Made by a program: the position numbers and the translations under genes
Assembly: GCA_018240405.1 (NCBI GenBank)
Contig: JAFEFW010000614.1
Coordinates: forward strand, 1-64,000
Length of the DNA: 64,000 bases
Origin: Pseudomonadota bacterium
GTDB taxonomy: Bacteria > Pseudomonadota > Alphaproteobacteria > Acetobacterales > Acetobacteraceae
Direction of reading: 5' to 3'
Shown: one piece after another, positions 23,681 through 62,043 of the stretch
Numbering within the stretch: the first letter of the stretch is position 1
Layout: each line of letters begins with the position of its first letter
The notes under the pieces: model-generated
What the model saw: only the letters and a program-made list of their open reading frames with translations
What the model was told of the DNA's origin: nothing
The model's database searches: none

Positions 23681-25249
23681 GTGCGGACTATCAAAAGCGC
23701 CATGATTGCGGCCCTCGCCGCGTGGTGTGCCATGGCGTCTCCACACTCGGCCATTGCGCAAGGCAGGCCGATCGACGCAAACGCGACTGCAACGATCGTC
23801 TACTATGATCTGGCCGGCAACGAAACGCTGGATCCGGCCGATACGCAGAACAATAGCAGCTACTCGCACGAGGCCCTGCTGGCGCTGTATGATGGCCTGA
23901 TCCGCATGGACAATGCCGGCATGCCGGGGCCCGGACTAGCCGAATCCTGGACGCGCAGCGACGACCTGACCGAGATCACGCTCAAGCTGCGCCGCGGTGT
24001 CAGCTTTCATGACGGTACAGCGTTCAACGCCGAAGCTGTAAAGAAGAACATCGAGCGCAACCAGGCGCTGGGCCGGCGCGCCGGCGGCACGGTCTATGAA
24101 GCGATGAACCTGATCGCCGCCATTGATGTGCAGGGCGACGATGTCATCAAGCTAAAGCTGAAGGCACCCAACGGGCAGATCGAGTACTGGCTGGGCTCGA
24201 CCGCCGGTTTCATGGTCAGCCCGGCTGCCTTCAAAGACGGCGCTATTGGTAGTGCCTTGCAGGGCATCGGCACCGGCCCGTTCAAGGTAAAGTCGTTCGA
24301 GCCCAATGTACGAACAATCCTGTCTCGCAACGACTCCTACTGGGGCGGGACGGCAGGGCGGCCCGCGGGGTTTGAGCATCATTACGTCCCCGACGGCAGG
24401 GCGCGGCTGAACGCGCTGCGCTCCGGCCAGGCCAACATTGCACAGATTGACGCGCGGCAGATTCCCGAAGCCAAGGACGCAGGCCTCACTATTCAGGTCG
24501 TCGAGAAAAATGCCTTCTGGGACATCTACCCGAACCTGGCAAAGGGTCCGCTTGGCGATGTGCGCGTGCGCCAGGCGATCATGTACGCCATCGACCGCGA
24601 GGCCATTGCCGACGCCCTGACCTTCGGTAGCGGCAAGGCAACCTGGCAATACTGGTCGCGCCTGTCGCCGTATTACGTAAAGGAGTTGGAGAACCGCTAC
24701 CCTTTCGACCAGGCCAAGGCGAAGGCGCTGCTGAAAGAGGCCGGGCTGCCGAACGGCTTTGAGATGACCCAGCTGCTGCTGAACAACAGCGAATACCGAC
24801 AGATCGCCGAGGCGCTGCAGGCCATGCTGGGCGAGGTCGGCATCAAGGTGAAATTCGACGTTGTCGACGTCTCGCAGTTTCCGTTGTTCTACAAGCAGCC
24901 CCCGCGCGGCGACGTGCTGATGGCGCGCTATGGCGGCCGCAGCGATCCGGTGCAGACGATCTACGAGCTCGTCGGCACCGGCGGGTCCTATGCACCAGGC
25001 GGCTCCGCCAGCCCCGAGATCGATCGCCTGTTGAATCAGATGCGCGCCATGCCGGCGACGGATCCGAAGCGGGTCACCGCGATGCAGGATCTGTCGCGCG
25101 TCATTGCCGATACGGCGGCAACGGTCCCGATCATCACCCGCGCCAATGTTTACGCCTACCGGCCGGGCTGCATCTTGAACCTGCAGCCTTACCTCGCGGC
25201 CGGCGACGACCGCTTCAACGATGTCCAGATTGCTTCAGGATGCAAATGA
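23681..25249 (+). CDS. ABC transporter substrate-binding protein 1 (family 5, peptide/opine type)
   Basis: The 522-residue periplasmic binding protein starts at GTG 23681, preceded by AGGAATTC, and has a signal peptide ending at about AIA-QG. SBP_bac_5 features are visible: TLDPADTQNNSSYSHEALLA (about 49-68), GLAESWTRSDDLTEITLKLR (about 86-105), VSFHDGTAFNAEAVKKNIER, GTGPFKVKSF, and VRQAIMYAIDREAIADALTF. It shares with its three paralogs a C-terminal block with a Cys (GCILNLQPYL) and a final Cys-Lys, so a C-terminal disulfide is likely. It delivers di/oligopeptide-like or opine-like ligands to the permeases at 28516-30344. An ATG at 23636 is the alternative start. Confidence 0.85.
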   Translation: MRTIKSAMIAALAAWCAMASPHSAIAQGRPIDANATATIVYYDLAGNETLDPADTQNNSSYSHEALLALYDGLIRMDNAGMPGPGLAESWTRSDDLTEITLKLRRGVSFHDGTAFNAEAVKKNIERNQALGRRAGGTVYEAMNLIAAIDVQGDDVIKLKLKAPNGQIEYWLGSTAGFMVSPAAFKDGAIGSALQGIGTGPFKVKSFEPNVRTILSRNDSYWGGTAGRPAGFEHHYVPDGRARLNALRSGQANIAQIDARQIPEAKDAGLTIQVVEKNAFWDIYPNLAKGPLGDVRVRQAIMYAIDREAIADALTFGSGKATWQYWSRLSPYYVKELENRYPFDQAKAKALLKEAGLPNGFEMTQLLLNNSEYRQIAEALQAMLGEVGIKVKFDVVDVSQFPLFYKQPPRGDVLMARYGGRSDPVQTIYELVGTGGSYAPGGSASPEIDRLLNQMRAMPATDPKRVTAMQDLSRVIADTAATVPIITRANVYAYRPGCILNLQPYLAAGDDRFNDVQIASGCK

Positions 25250-26796
25250 GAACCAGGACGAGAGCCCTTCTGACCACCGCCCTGCTGGGGTGCCTAGCGA
25301 CCGCCGGCGCGCAGGCCGCGGAACCCAATCCGAATGCGACGCTGATCTATTACGATGCCGTCGGTAACGTGACGCTGGATCCGGCGGAGCCGCAAAGCGG
25401 CAGCAGCTTTTCGCAGGAGGTGTTGCTGGCGCTGTACGACACAGTGGTCTACCTCGACGACAAGGGAAACCCGGGTCCGGGCCTGGCGGAATCGTGGCAG
25501 GTCAACCCCGAGATGACGTCGTACACGTTCAAGTTGCGGCCGGGCATCAAGTTCCATGACGGTTCCGACCTGACAGCCGACGTGGTGAAGCGCAACATCG
25601 ACCGCAACATGGCACTGGGCAACAAGGCCAGCGGCGCCATGGTCGACTCGATCAAGCCGTTCGCATCCGTGGAAGTCCTTGGCCCGCTTGAATTCCGGCT
25701 GAATCTGAACTCACCCAGCGGACAGATTCCATTCGTGATGGGTGGCATTGCCGGGATGGTTGCCAGCGCGGCATCGATCAACAACGATGATTTCGGGGTC
25801 AGCTTCAAGGCCGTCGGCACCGGCGCTTACCGTCTGCAGTCATTCGAGTCCAACGTCAAGACGATCATGGCGCGGAACGATTCCTACTGGGGCGGCACCA
25901 AGGGCCGTCCTGCGGTCTTCCAGCATCACTACGTTCCCGACGGCAACGCCCGGCTGAACGCAGTGCGGTCCGGTCAGGCGACCATTGCCCTGATCGACCC
26001 GCGGCAGGTGCCAGAAACCAAGAGTGCCGGCCTTGCCATTCAGATGAATGAAAAGAACGGCGTCTGGGATATCTACATCAACCTGGGCAAGACGCCGCTG
26101 AAGGACCTGAAGGTGCGGCAAGCCCTCATGCACGCGATCGACCGCGAGGCACTGGCCGACGCGCTGAGTTTTGGCAGCAGCAAGCCAACGGTGCAGTTCT
26201 TCGCGCAGTCCTCGCCGGTCTATGATCCGGCGCTGGAAAAGCTCTACCCGTATGATCCGAAGAAGGCGAAGGCGCTGCTCGCCGAAGCCGGCTACAAGGA
26301 TGGCATCGACCTGACGCAGCTGTTGCTCAACACGACTGAATACAAGCAGTTGGGCGAAGCGTTGCAGGCGATGCTGGCGGAATCCAACATCCGGGTGAAG
26401 TTCGACGTTGTGGATGCCTCGAACTTCAACGTGTTCCGCCGCCCGCCGTACCGGGGCGACTACCTGATGGCACGATGGGGCGGCCGAGCGGATCCGCTGC
26501 AGGTGTACCAGGAACTGATCGCGACGGGTGCAACCTACAATCCTGTCGGCGTCGCCAGTCCCGAAATCGATACGCTTATCGCCAAGGCGCGCGGCATGCT
26601 GCCGTCCGACCCGCAGCGCATTCCCGTGCTGCGCCAGATCGCGCGCGTCGCGGTGGAGAACGTGGCGCACGCGCCGTTGATGACGCGGTCCAACATCTAT
26701 GCCTTCCGCGAAGGCTGCATTATGAATCTGAAACCGTACCTGCCGTTTGGCGACGACCGTTTCAACGACGTGCAGGTGAGCGCGGCATGCAAGTGA
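25246..26796 (+). CDS. ABC transporter substrate-binding protein 2 (family 5)
   Basis: The 516-residue paralog of the preceding gene starts in an ATGA overlap with it (an ATG 6 bases earlier is possible). It has a signal peptide ending at about AQA-AE. It shares TLIYYDAVGNVTLDPAEPQS, GLAESW, VRQALMHAIDREALADALSF and the C-terminal GCIMNLKPYLPFGDDRFND, ending in Ala-Ala-Cys-Lys. Two binding proteins this similar in one operon suggest ligand diversification. It ends in a TGA that overlaps the candidate GTG of the third binding protein, so the three are translationally linked. Confidence 0.85.
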   Translation: MRTRTRALLTTALLGCLATAGAQAAEPNPNATLIYYDAVGNVTLDPAEPQSGSSFSQEVLLALYDTVVYLDDKGNPGPGLAESWQVNPEMTSYTFKLRPGIKFHDGSDLTADVVKRNIDRNMALGNKASGAMVDSIKPFASVEVLGPLEFRLNLNSPSGQIPFVMGGIAGMVASAASINNDDFGVSFKAVGTGAYRLQSFESNVKTIMARNDSYWGGTKGRPAVFQHHYVPDGNARLNAVRSGQATIALIDPRQVPETKSAGLAIQMNEKNGVWDIYINLGKTPLKDLKVRQALMHAIDREALADALSFGSSKPTVQFFAQSSPVYDPALEKLYPYDPKKAKALLAEAGYKDGIDLTQLLLNTTEYKQLGEALQAMLAESNIRVKFDVVDASNFNVFRRPPYRGDYLMARWGGRADPLQVYQELIATGATYNPVGVASPEIDTLIAKARGMLPSDPQRIPVLRQIARVAVENVAHAPLMTRSNIYAFREGCIMNLKPYLPFGDDRFNDVQVSAACK

Positions 26797-28502
26797 GACG
26801 TTTTATTGCGGGCGCAAACGTTCACACCGTCATGGCGGGCGAAGGCCCGCCATCCACGGCTTGCGATGCGTCCCCAGGTCGGGAATACCAAACCGTGCGG
26901 CAAAGGCGTGGATGGCGGGCCTTCGCCCGCCCTGACGTTGAACCAGCGGCCGGGAGCCCGCTCCGCCACCTGCTCGCCGCCACCGCGCTGACCCTCGCCG
27001 CCGCCCTACCCGCTCGCGCCGCCGACAAGGCGCCGGACCCGAACGCGACGCTGATCTATTTCGATGCCGTCAGCAACCAGACGCTGGACCCGCAGGAGCC
27101 GCAGAATAACAGCAGCTTCGCCCAGGGCGTGCTGATGGCGATCTACGACTCGCTGGTCCGCCTGGCTCCAGACGGTGAGCCCAAGCCCGGCCTCGCCGAG
27201 TCCTGGCACTACAACGAAGACCTGACGGAGATCACCTTCACCCTGCGCAAGGGGGTCACCTTCCACGACGGCACGCCGTTCAATGCCGCCGCAGTAGCGA
27301 AGAATTTTGAGCGTTCGATGGCTCTCGGCCCCAAAGCCGGCGGCGTGACCATCGAAACCTTTACGCAGGTCGCCGGCTACGAAGTCGTCGACGACAGCAC
27401 AGTCCGGGTCAAGCTGAAGGCACGCAGCGGACAGATGCCGTACCTGTTCGGTACGCAGGCCGGCATGATGATCAGCCCCGCCGTGCTGTCTGACACAGCG
27501 TTTGGCGCAACGCTAAAGCCGATTGGCACCGGCCCGTATCGCGTCACCGGCTTCGACTCCAATGTCCGCACGCAAACCCGCCGTAACGACGCTTATTGGG
27601 AAGGCATCGAGGGCCGTCCGGCCGGATTCGAGCACAATTTCGTTTCGGATGCGCGCGCCCGCCTGAACGCGCTCCGGTCAGGCCAGGCCAACCTTGCGCT
27701 GATTGAGCCACGGCAGATCGCCGAGGCCAAGGACGCCGGATTTGCCGTCCAGATCAACGAAAAGAACAGCACCTGGGAGATCGGTCTCAACACCAGCCAT
27801 GAAACGGTCGGCAAGTTGAAACTGCGCCAGGCGATGATGCACGCGATCGATCGCGAAGCATTGGCTGACGCCCTCGGCTACGGCGCATCGAAACCAACCG
27901 TTCAGTTCTTCGCCCAGTCCTCGCCCTGGTTCGACCCGGCGTTGGAGAAACTGTTCCCCTACGATCCGGATAAGGCTCGTAAGCTGGTGGCCGAAGCCGG
28001 CTATCCGAAGGGCGTCGACATAAGCTGGCTGCTGTTGAACACCACCGAATACAAGACAATGGGTGAGGCCGTGCAGTCGATGCTGCAGGAAGTCGGCATC
28101 CGGGTGAAATTCGATACGGTCGACGTCTCGCAATACACGCTGTTCCGCCGCCCGGCACCAGGGCGCGGCGACGTACTGATGGTGCGCTGGGGAGGCCGCC
28201 CTGATCCGCTGATGACGTTCCAGGAGTTTATCAGTGGCAAGGCTAATCCATGGGGCGCGGTGGTACCGGAAATCGATACGCTGATCGATCAGGCCCGCGC
28301 CATGGCGCCATCAGACCCGAAGCGGGCCGAGGTGATCCACAAGCTCTCCCGCGTCGCCACCGAACAGGTCGCGCATATGACGCTGATGACCCGGTCGAAC
28401 GTCTACGCCTACAAGCCGGGCTGCGTCACCAACCTGCCCGCCTACCTGCCCACCGGCAATGACCGCATGAACGACACACGTGTCGGCATGGGCTGCAAGT
28501 AA
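26793..28502 (+). CDS. ABC transporter substrate-binding protein 3 (family 5), leader interrupted by repeat
   Basis: The mature part (from about residue 76, KAPDPNATLIYFDAVSNQTL) is a full SBP_bac_5 paralog of its neighbours with GLAESWHYNEDLTEITF, VTFHDGTPFN and a final Gly-Cys-Lys. A GTG at 26793 overlaps the upstream TGA exactly as in the previous pair, giving 569 residues, about 45-50 more than the paralogs. The surplus is at the N terminus, where a 110-bp palindromic repeat (26828-26937) reads through in frame before a good hydrophobic core (HLLAATALTLAAALPARA). Other possible starts are ATG 26831 and GTG 26895. Whether it is still exported is open. Confidence 0.75.
   Translation: MRRFIAGANVHTVMAGEGPPSTACDASPGREYQTVRQRRGWRAFARPDVEPAAGSPLRHLLAATALTLAAALPARAADKAPDPNATLIYFDAVSNQTLDPQEPQNNSSFAQGVLMAIYDSLVRLAPDGEPKPGLAESWHYNEDLTEITFTLRKGVTFHDGTPFNAAAVAKNFERSMALGPKAGGVTIETFTQVAGYEVVDDSTVRVKLKARSGQMPYLFGTQAGMMISPAVLSDTAFGATLKPIGTGPYRVTGFDSNVRTQTRRNDAYWEGIEGRPAGFEHNFVSDARARLNALRSGQANLALIEPRQIAEAKDAGFAVQINEKNSTWEIGLNTSHETVGKLKLRQAMMHAIDREALADALGYGASKPTVQFFAQSSPWFDPALEKLFPYDPDKARKLVAEAGYPKGVDISWLLLNTTEYKTMGEAVQSMLQEVGIRVKFDTVDVSQYTLFRRPAPGRGDVLMVRWGGRPDPLMTFQEFISGKANPWGAVVPEIDTLIDQARAMAPSDPKRAEVIHKLSRVATEQVAHMTLMTRSNVYAYKPGCVTNLPAYLPTGNDRMNDTRVGMGCK
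26828..26937. repeat. Palindromic repeat element inside coding sequence
   Basis: Two 31-bp arms in inverted orientation (26828-26858 and 26907-26937) match with one mismatch. Each arm is itself a hairpin (GGCGGGC-GAAG-GCCCGCC type). The 48-base middle also pairs partly. It resembles the REP/BIME-like CGTCATGGC-GGGC...-CCATCCACG repeats known from alphaproteobacterial intergenic DNA. Here it lies in the 5' coding part of a binding-protein gene. Confidence 0.8.
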
Positions 28503-61930: not shown

Positions 61931-62043
61931 TTGTCACGGCGGGCGGAGGCCCGCCAGCCCTGCCTTGCAGCGCCGCGCCAGGCAACAGGCGCGGGAGTGG
62001 GCGGCAACGGCATGGAGGGCGGATGTGCACCCGCCAGGACAAG
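61931..62043. repeat. Imperfect palindromic intergenic repeat, related to the 26828 element
   Basis: TTGTCACGGCGGGCGGAGGC with CCGCC after it opens the unit at 61931, and an inverted relative (ending CCGCCAGGACAAG) closes it at 62043. The middle also folds (GCGCC/GGCGC). The length, about 113 bases, and the GGCGGGC-GxAG-GCCCGCC arm resemble the element inside the binding-protein gene. Here it lies in the normal intergenic place between alr and dnaB. Confidence 0.55.

Follow-up and report, generated by a model that had tools for sequence, protein, structure and literature searches.

The window analysed here, a stretch of 64,000 nucleotides of an Acetobacteraceae genome (G000; other G numbers denote related genomes), contains an array of four family-5 substrate-binding protein genes, and the third of these carries a palindromic element in its leader. 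The junction between the second and third genes has the following features.

25240..26796, + strand: upstream substrate-binding protein gene, with no element at its own start
26774..26779, + strand: AGGTGA, Shine-Dalgarno-like by eye, 7 nt ahead of ATG 26787
26787..28502, + strand: open reading frame of the third of the four family-5 substrate-binding proteins (Pfam SBP_bac_5, E 2.6e-77), with the element in its leader
26793..26795, + strand: GTG of the GTGA stop/start overlap, the probable original start, with ATG 26787 as the alternative
26828..26858, + strand: left CGTC REP unit, an exact match to the family pattern, with tag CGTC, 9-bp stem ATGGCGGGC, loop GAAG and tail CCA
26859..26906, no strand: spacer of the REP dimer, separating the two units; the spacers of other copies are related
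26895..26897, + strand: last in-frame start codon, a GTG in the spacer, from a codon scan
26907..26937, - strand: right CGTC REP unit, inverted, with a single mismatch
26967..27020, + strand: predicted signal-peptide hydrophobic core and cleavage-site region, HLLAATALTLAAALPARA, from the translation only

As a whole the element, at 26828-26937, consists of two CGTC-tagged REPs joined head to head. A preliminary description of this DNA had reported a palindrome of 110 bp with 31-bp arms and one mismatch, and both the length and the arm comparison agree with it: the 31-nt arms differ at 1 position, the ungapped inverted pair reaches 38 nt at 92%, and each arm is a hairpin on its own. CGTC-tagged REPs are a known alphaproteobacterial superfamily, described in the survey that covers it as having an unpaired tag, a stem of 8-9 bp that starts with AT, a loop of 4-5 nt and a CCA-type tail (Di Nocera et al., 2013; PMC3733652). 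In the window, the tag is unpaired and terminal in both units, the 3-nt tail is CCA and the left unit fits the stem rule (9 bp, AT start, 4-nt loop), as does the right unit with one stem mismatch. The palindrome is not the only one of its kind in the genome, as it might have been had the preliminary description been wrong; a pattern search allowing up to 3 mismatches found 127 units (61 + 66) in G000, with places listed for 100 of them, and the reversed pattern, used as a control, gave 0 matches there. The copies have their arms in common and are less alike in their spacers, and 43 of the 73 places examined in this genome (72 loci) are complete dimers with CGTC outward, so that high copy number and predominance of head-to-head dimers are both found in G000. 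Because tag, stem, loop, tail, copy number and dimer form are all as in PMC3733652, the window element is, on its sequence, a member of the CGTC REP superfamily. A search of Rfam with the element gave no match at the gathering score. Elsewhere in the window, positions 61932-61962 hold a degenerate REP-like unit with 5 mismatches, and contigs C76, C97, C131, C138 and C307 of G000 each start no more than about 80 bases from the far end of a REP unit, which looks as though the assembly breaks at the repeat.

REPINs likewise consist of two REPs in inverted orientation; the pair folds into a single hairpin and spreads within genomes (Bertels and Rainey, 2011; PMC3116915). Unlike the present family, the REPs of Pseudomonas are of the GTAG type (PMC3733652) and are tied to RAYT transposases. 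No Y1 (RAYT) transposase gene was found in G000, and a RAYT transposase was therefore rejected as the mobilizer; as the genome is 97.6% complete, a Y1 gene may have been missed. Matches to the Y1 transposase are present in 9 of 40 related genomes, four of them within the genus (G006, G007, G013 and G020). The lack of a dedicated transposase counts among the traits of the CGTC superfamily; of transposases, the search covered the Y1 family.

The reading frame of the third binding protein is open from 26340, through the element and into an intact HLLAATALTLAAALPARA, as the preliminary description had stated, and the GTGA overlap that it noted is real, with GTG 26793 lying over the stop codon of the upstream gene (26794-26796). 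Read from this GTG, the leader is VRRFIAGANVHT-VMAGEGPPST-ACDASPGREYQTVRQ-RRGWRAFARPD-VEPAAGSPLR-HLLAATALTLAAALPARA, and its first residues, VRRFIAG, resemble by eye the MRKLMAG of the element-free sister G012. The element begins 31 nt after the upstream stop and ends 29 nt before the core. From the upstream stop to the mature motif the distance is 251 nt, compared with 80-92 nt in seven of ten element-free orthologs (122, 126 and 140 nt in the other three), which makes the leader some 53-57 residues longer than in those seven. The earlier estimate of 45-50 extra residues was thus right about a longer leader and slightly low. Besides the element, the extra part takes in the flanks of 31 nt and 29 nt.

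Four in-frame start codons lie at the junction: ATG 26787, GTG 26793, ATG 26832 and GTG 26895. Against the old overlap start, the main rival is initiation within the element, at ATG 26832 in the left arm or at GTG 26895 in the spacer, which would give a shorter leader and leave the old start dead. Both codons are in frame, the first giving MAGEGPPST and the second VRQRRGWRAF, an ordinary kind of basic n-region. However, by eye there is no clear Shine-Dalgarno sequence ahead of either, AGGTGA and the old overlap start are still in place, and the frame of the old start is likewise kept in G001 and G017 (see below). A new start of this kind therefore seems to us improbable, and translation more probably begins at the old one.

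Beyond the element the choice is narrower, as no ATG, GTG or TTG lies in frame between 26895 and the mature domain. The case that the preliminary description had named against itself, of relatives all carrying the sequence as a spacer ahead of a conserved start past 26937, thus does not apply. Since none of these codons follows the right arm, translation would, barring a rare start codon, run through at least that arm whenever the protein is made, and a start after the element was rejected for all three. According to PMC3733652, N-terminal REPs are often untranslated and most N-terminal intragenic cases are to be doubted. The same suspicion may be raised here, the more so as other N-terminal copies in the genus look untranslated, but a true start past the element would need CTG or another rare codon, and we regard an extragenic spacer as very improbable at this junction.

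The same junction could be followed across the genus. Homologs at E 1e-150 or better are present in 13 of 34 genus genomes, the window genome included. A tree built from 47 mature proteins groups 12 orthologs of the window gene (L042 is a paralog by this tree). The ortholog in G027, which is cut by a contig end and stands outside the tree, was assigned from its position and an identity of 70%; its junction can still be read. An ATG or GTG start overlapping the upstream stop is found at 10 of the 13 junctions, counting the window. The comparison with relatives suggested in the preliminary description shows the CGTC palindrome absent at 10 of the 13 orthologous junctions and present at three, in G000, G001 and G017. 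The G001 element has the stem ATGGTCGGG and a 5-nt loop, that of G017 has the stems ATGCCGGC and ATGGCGGCC, and G001 has a second element at the preceding junction of the array. The three orthologous elements are of three sequence types, unlike in stem and loop, and each has element-free relatives in the tree (G012 for G000; G003, G011 and G029 for G001; G033 for G017), which points to separate insertions. PMC3733652 mentions that two Xanthomonas species have different REPs at roughly one and the same position in recB.

All four junctions with an element (the three orthologs and one G001 paralog) are open and fall in the distance class 2 mod 3, which is also the class of 8 of the 10 element-free junctions and is thus the norm rather than a mark of the element. 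Frame retention has a chance of 0.037 for three events or 0.012 for four, the number depending on whether the two G001 junctions share one origin. With ten empty junctions and every element junction in frame, the original proposal of an in-frame insertion that kept the old start is supported. Among the element-free orthologs, that of G029 (L035 / L172) has no palindrome but, within the signal peptide, a tandem repeat of 15 bp (FAPTA x3), and that of G011 (L032 / L166) goes out of frame where the leader has ten consecutive G, possibly a sequencing error. G000 is a fragmented genome of 681 contigs, several of which start or finish in repeat copies among the matches listed, and an artefact of assembly might be suspected at the window junction too; however, this junction is internal to a 95.8-kb contig and elements stand at the same junction in two other genomes, and we give almost no credence to that explanation.

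A different role for the element is suggested by its predicted RNA structure. The segment 26760-26990 folds at -131.4 kcal/mol, against -98.8 +/- 5.0 for shuffled sequences (z -6.56; 0 of 200 as stable), and REPs are reported to be often near the 3' end of an upstream ORF between genes of the same direction (PMC3733652), a position comparable to that seen here, 31 nt past the stop. The element could thus be an intercistronic RNA hairpin that shields the upstream transcript or dampens coupling, with the downstream gene weakly expressed or not at all. However, the mature protein is open and shares 68-79% identity with ten orthologs (one a partial sequence) and thus shows no obvious sign of being a pseudogene, and the retention of frame at four junctions is left unexplained. 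We therefore find the hairpin rather unlikely as the explanation of the locus, although it is compatible with translation and both can hold. The strong hairpin may tune expression whichever start is used; apart from it, the effect of the insertion is inferred to be near neutral. The further suggestions of the preliminary description, a changed start site and lower expression of one of the four paralogs, gained no support from the tests made here, and neither did a functional difference among the paralogs.

Most of the REP copies examined in this genus lie outside genes. The preliminary description had held that REP-like elements avoid coding DNA, which is correct as a tendency but not without exception: among 200 places examined in three genomes, 15 in-frame cases within genes were accepted, including the window copy. 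In G000, where genes were called by a flank-coding test and Pfam, the others are in cobN (L003), a hydantoinase (L193), an AAA-lid/VWA protein (L210), which we take to be BchD, and a GDSL esterase (L005), whose REP lies between a signal-like stretch and the domain. The G020 ortholog of the esterase has a REP in its leader, and two genomes thus have an esterase copy. The cobN insert is visible against element-free orthologs, and a second cobN site carries a REP in G006, G008 and, in part, G025; species of the genus thus differ in which of two cobN sites was struck (L230, L233 and L229 versus L227). In G008, with 142 units and at least 100 places located, 80 loci were taken (one of them chosen for cobN), ten of the listed places being left out, and 84 places examined. 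In-frame REPs were found there in an Oxidored_nitro protein, HypF (twice), CitG, a FeS_assembly_P protein and a TagF_N protein, and another close to the end of a HycI ORF. On contig C84 of this genome a single hypF has in-frame REPs at two places (L298 and L299), and the HycI ORF with its own copy is about 5 kb away. In G010 (59 units; 43 places in 40 loci, four places at contig ends being left out), the Pfam-backed cases are a CopD protein and a methyltransferase, presumably UbiG. Other N-terminal copies, before an AAA ATPase, an accD-like gene and transporter genes, are seemingly untranslated. Beside the in-frame REPs of L210, L273 and L324 there are tandem degenerate peptides (PSPAMT and GTAPTPSSI repeats), as if arms had been duplicated into linkers.

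The peptide that a dimer encodes depends on the frame in which it is read. Frame A gives VMAGEGPPST/VDGGPAPAMT, frame B RHGGRRPAIH/RGWRAFARHD and frame C SWRAKARHPR followed by a stop. The A peptides abound in Gly, Pro, Ala, Ser and Thr, with a charge of -1; those of B and C have charges of +2 to +4 and contain aromatic residues or histidine. The window copy uses frame A on the left arm and the basic frame B (RGWRAFARPD) on the right arm, ahead of the signal-peptide core, where a positive charge is normal. Both esterase copies show the same order of frames, A in the left arm and B in the right (the G020 copy by eye). Frame openness by itself was rejected as evidence, since about half of the readings (127 of 258, from 43 complete dimers on both strands) are free of stops.

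For internal copies, there were 19 candidate readings, 5 in G000, 11 in G008 and 3 in G010. Eleven were kept (L003, L193, L210, L277 (+), L298, L299 (+), L301, L324, L329, L357 and L363), and L297, a weak case with its REP near the C-terminus, was added from a looser filter. Those dropped were L005 (the esterase, reported apart), L334 (the G008 cobN, fetched as already known), L277 (-) and L299 (-), which are antisense to kept ORFs, L029, L323 and L362, which have no Pfam match, and L275, which is accD-like and has its start after the REP; L303 (200 aa, no Pfam, frame B), L026 (no Pfam), L272, L017 and L222 were left out of the frame count. Frame A throughout was found in 11 of the 12 accepted events, against 5.3 expected from the frames open at each place (P = 1.9e-4), the exception being the G000 cobN copy, which reads B then A. 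Removal of uninformative, weak and same-gene events gives P = 7.7e-4, addition of L275, L029, L323 and L362 as failures gives P = 0.04, and all 19 unfiltered candidate readings (12 all-A, 8.2 expected) give P = 0.045, a weak signal. A bias of internal copies towards frame A is thus supported but depends on the filter, as P changes with which candidates are counted as genes. Frame A was also foretold for G010 from G008 before retrieval; the two Pfam-backed cases fit, and L362 (frame B, no Pfam) was set aside. Among N-terminal copies, the possibly untranslated ones read B in L027, L275, L283, L287, L294 and L308 and C in L260 and L319, while L208 (in G000), L263, L273 and L281 read A; of nine N-terminal ORFs in G008, three are in frame A and the remaining six in B or C.

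A bolder reading, which we hold to be less likely than not, is that the CGTC REPs of this genus are a running source of protein segments, frame A being kept as flexible linkers and the basic frames B and C being purged except in places such as signal-peptide n-regions. The sequence of the element may itself have been shaped to hold one harmless open frame in both arms.

Intragenic CGTC REPs are already known, and the survey of the superfamily resembles our findings in tag, stem, loop, tail, predominance of head-to-head dimers and some intragenic copies; it differs in naming Acetobacteraceae among the families without CGTC repeats and, in the parts consulted, in reporting no frame bias (PMC3733652). 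A search of literature titles and the openings of abstracts found no other report of a frame bias or of CGTC REPs from Acetobacteraceae. New in the present case are the lineage, the repeated occurrence at a single junction and, as a suggestion, the bias in frame. The likeness to Rickettsia drawn in the preliminary description proves closer than was known at the time, since two of the R. conorii elements, RPE-4 and RPE-6, are CGTC REPs too (PMC3733652). As with the palindromic elements of Rickettsia, which lie in frame within many unrelated genes, in-frame insertion was found here in several unrelated genes. The Rickettsia hosts are obligate intracellular bacteria with AT-rich genomes, whereas the present genus is GC-rich and most of its examined copies are extragenic.

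Taken together, we think it likely that a REP dimer was inserted in frame in the leader of this binding protein, that the old overlap start is used and that the longer leader is tolerated. The CGTC dimer would have been copied into the first codons, between the stop/start overlap and the hydrophobic signal-peptide core, and would have persisted because the frame was kept and stayed open. By coupling from the upstream gene, ribosomes would most likely start at GTG 26793 or ATG 26787 and then read through the element, and the product would gain about 55 residues ahead of the core, to be removed together with the signal peptide. Export of the protein with its longer leader is inferred still to work. 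The element would be one of several tolerated in-frame insertions in the genus, and copies within proteins would survive mostly in the frame that gives a Gly/Pro-rich, weakly charged peptide.

These findings would extend palindromes inside proteins, of the kind found in Rickettsia, to a GC-rich genus of a family said in PMC3733652 to be without CGTC repeats, and the empty orthologous sites make the insertion events directly readable. They also bear on the doubt that N-terminal REPs are mere annotation errors, as a product of this gene could hardly be made without translating at least one arm. Finally, the suggested frame bias offers a rule, open to testing, on which mobile palindromes can be tolerated in a protein.
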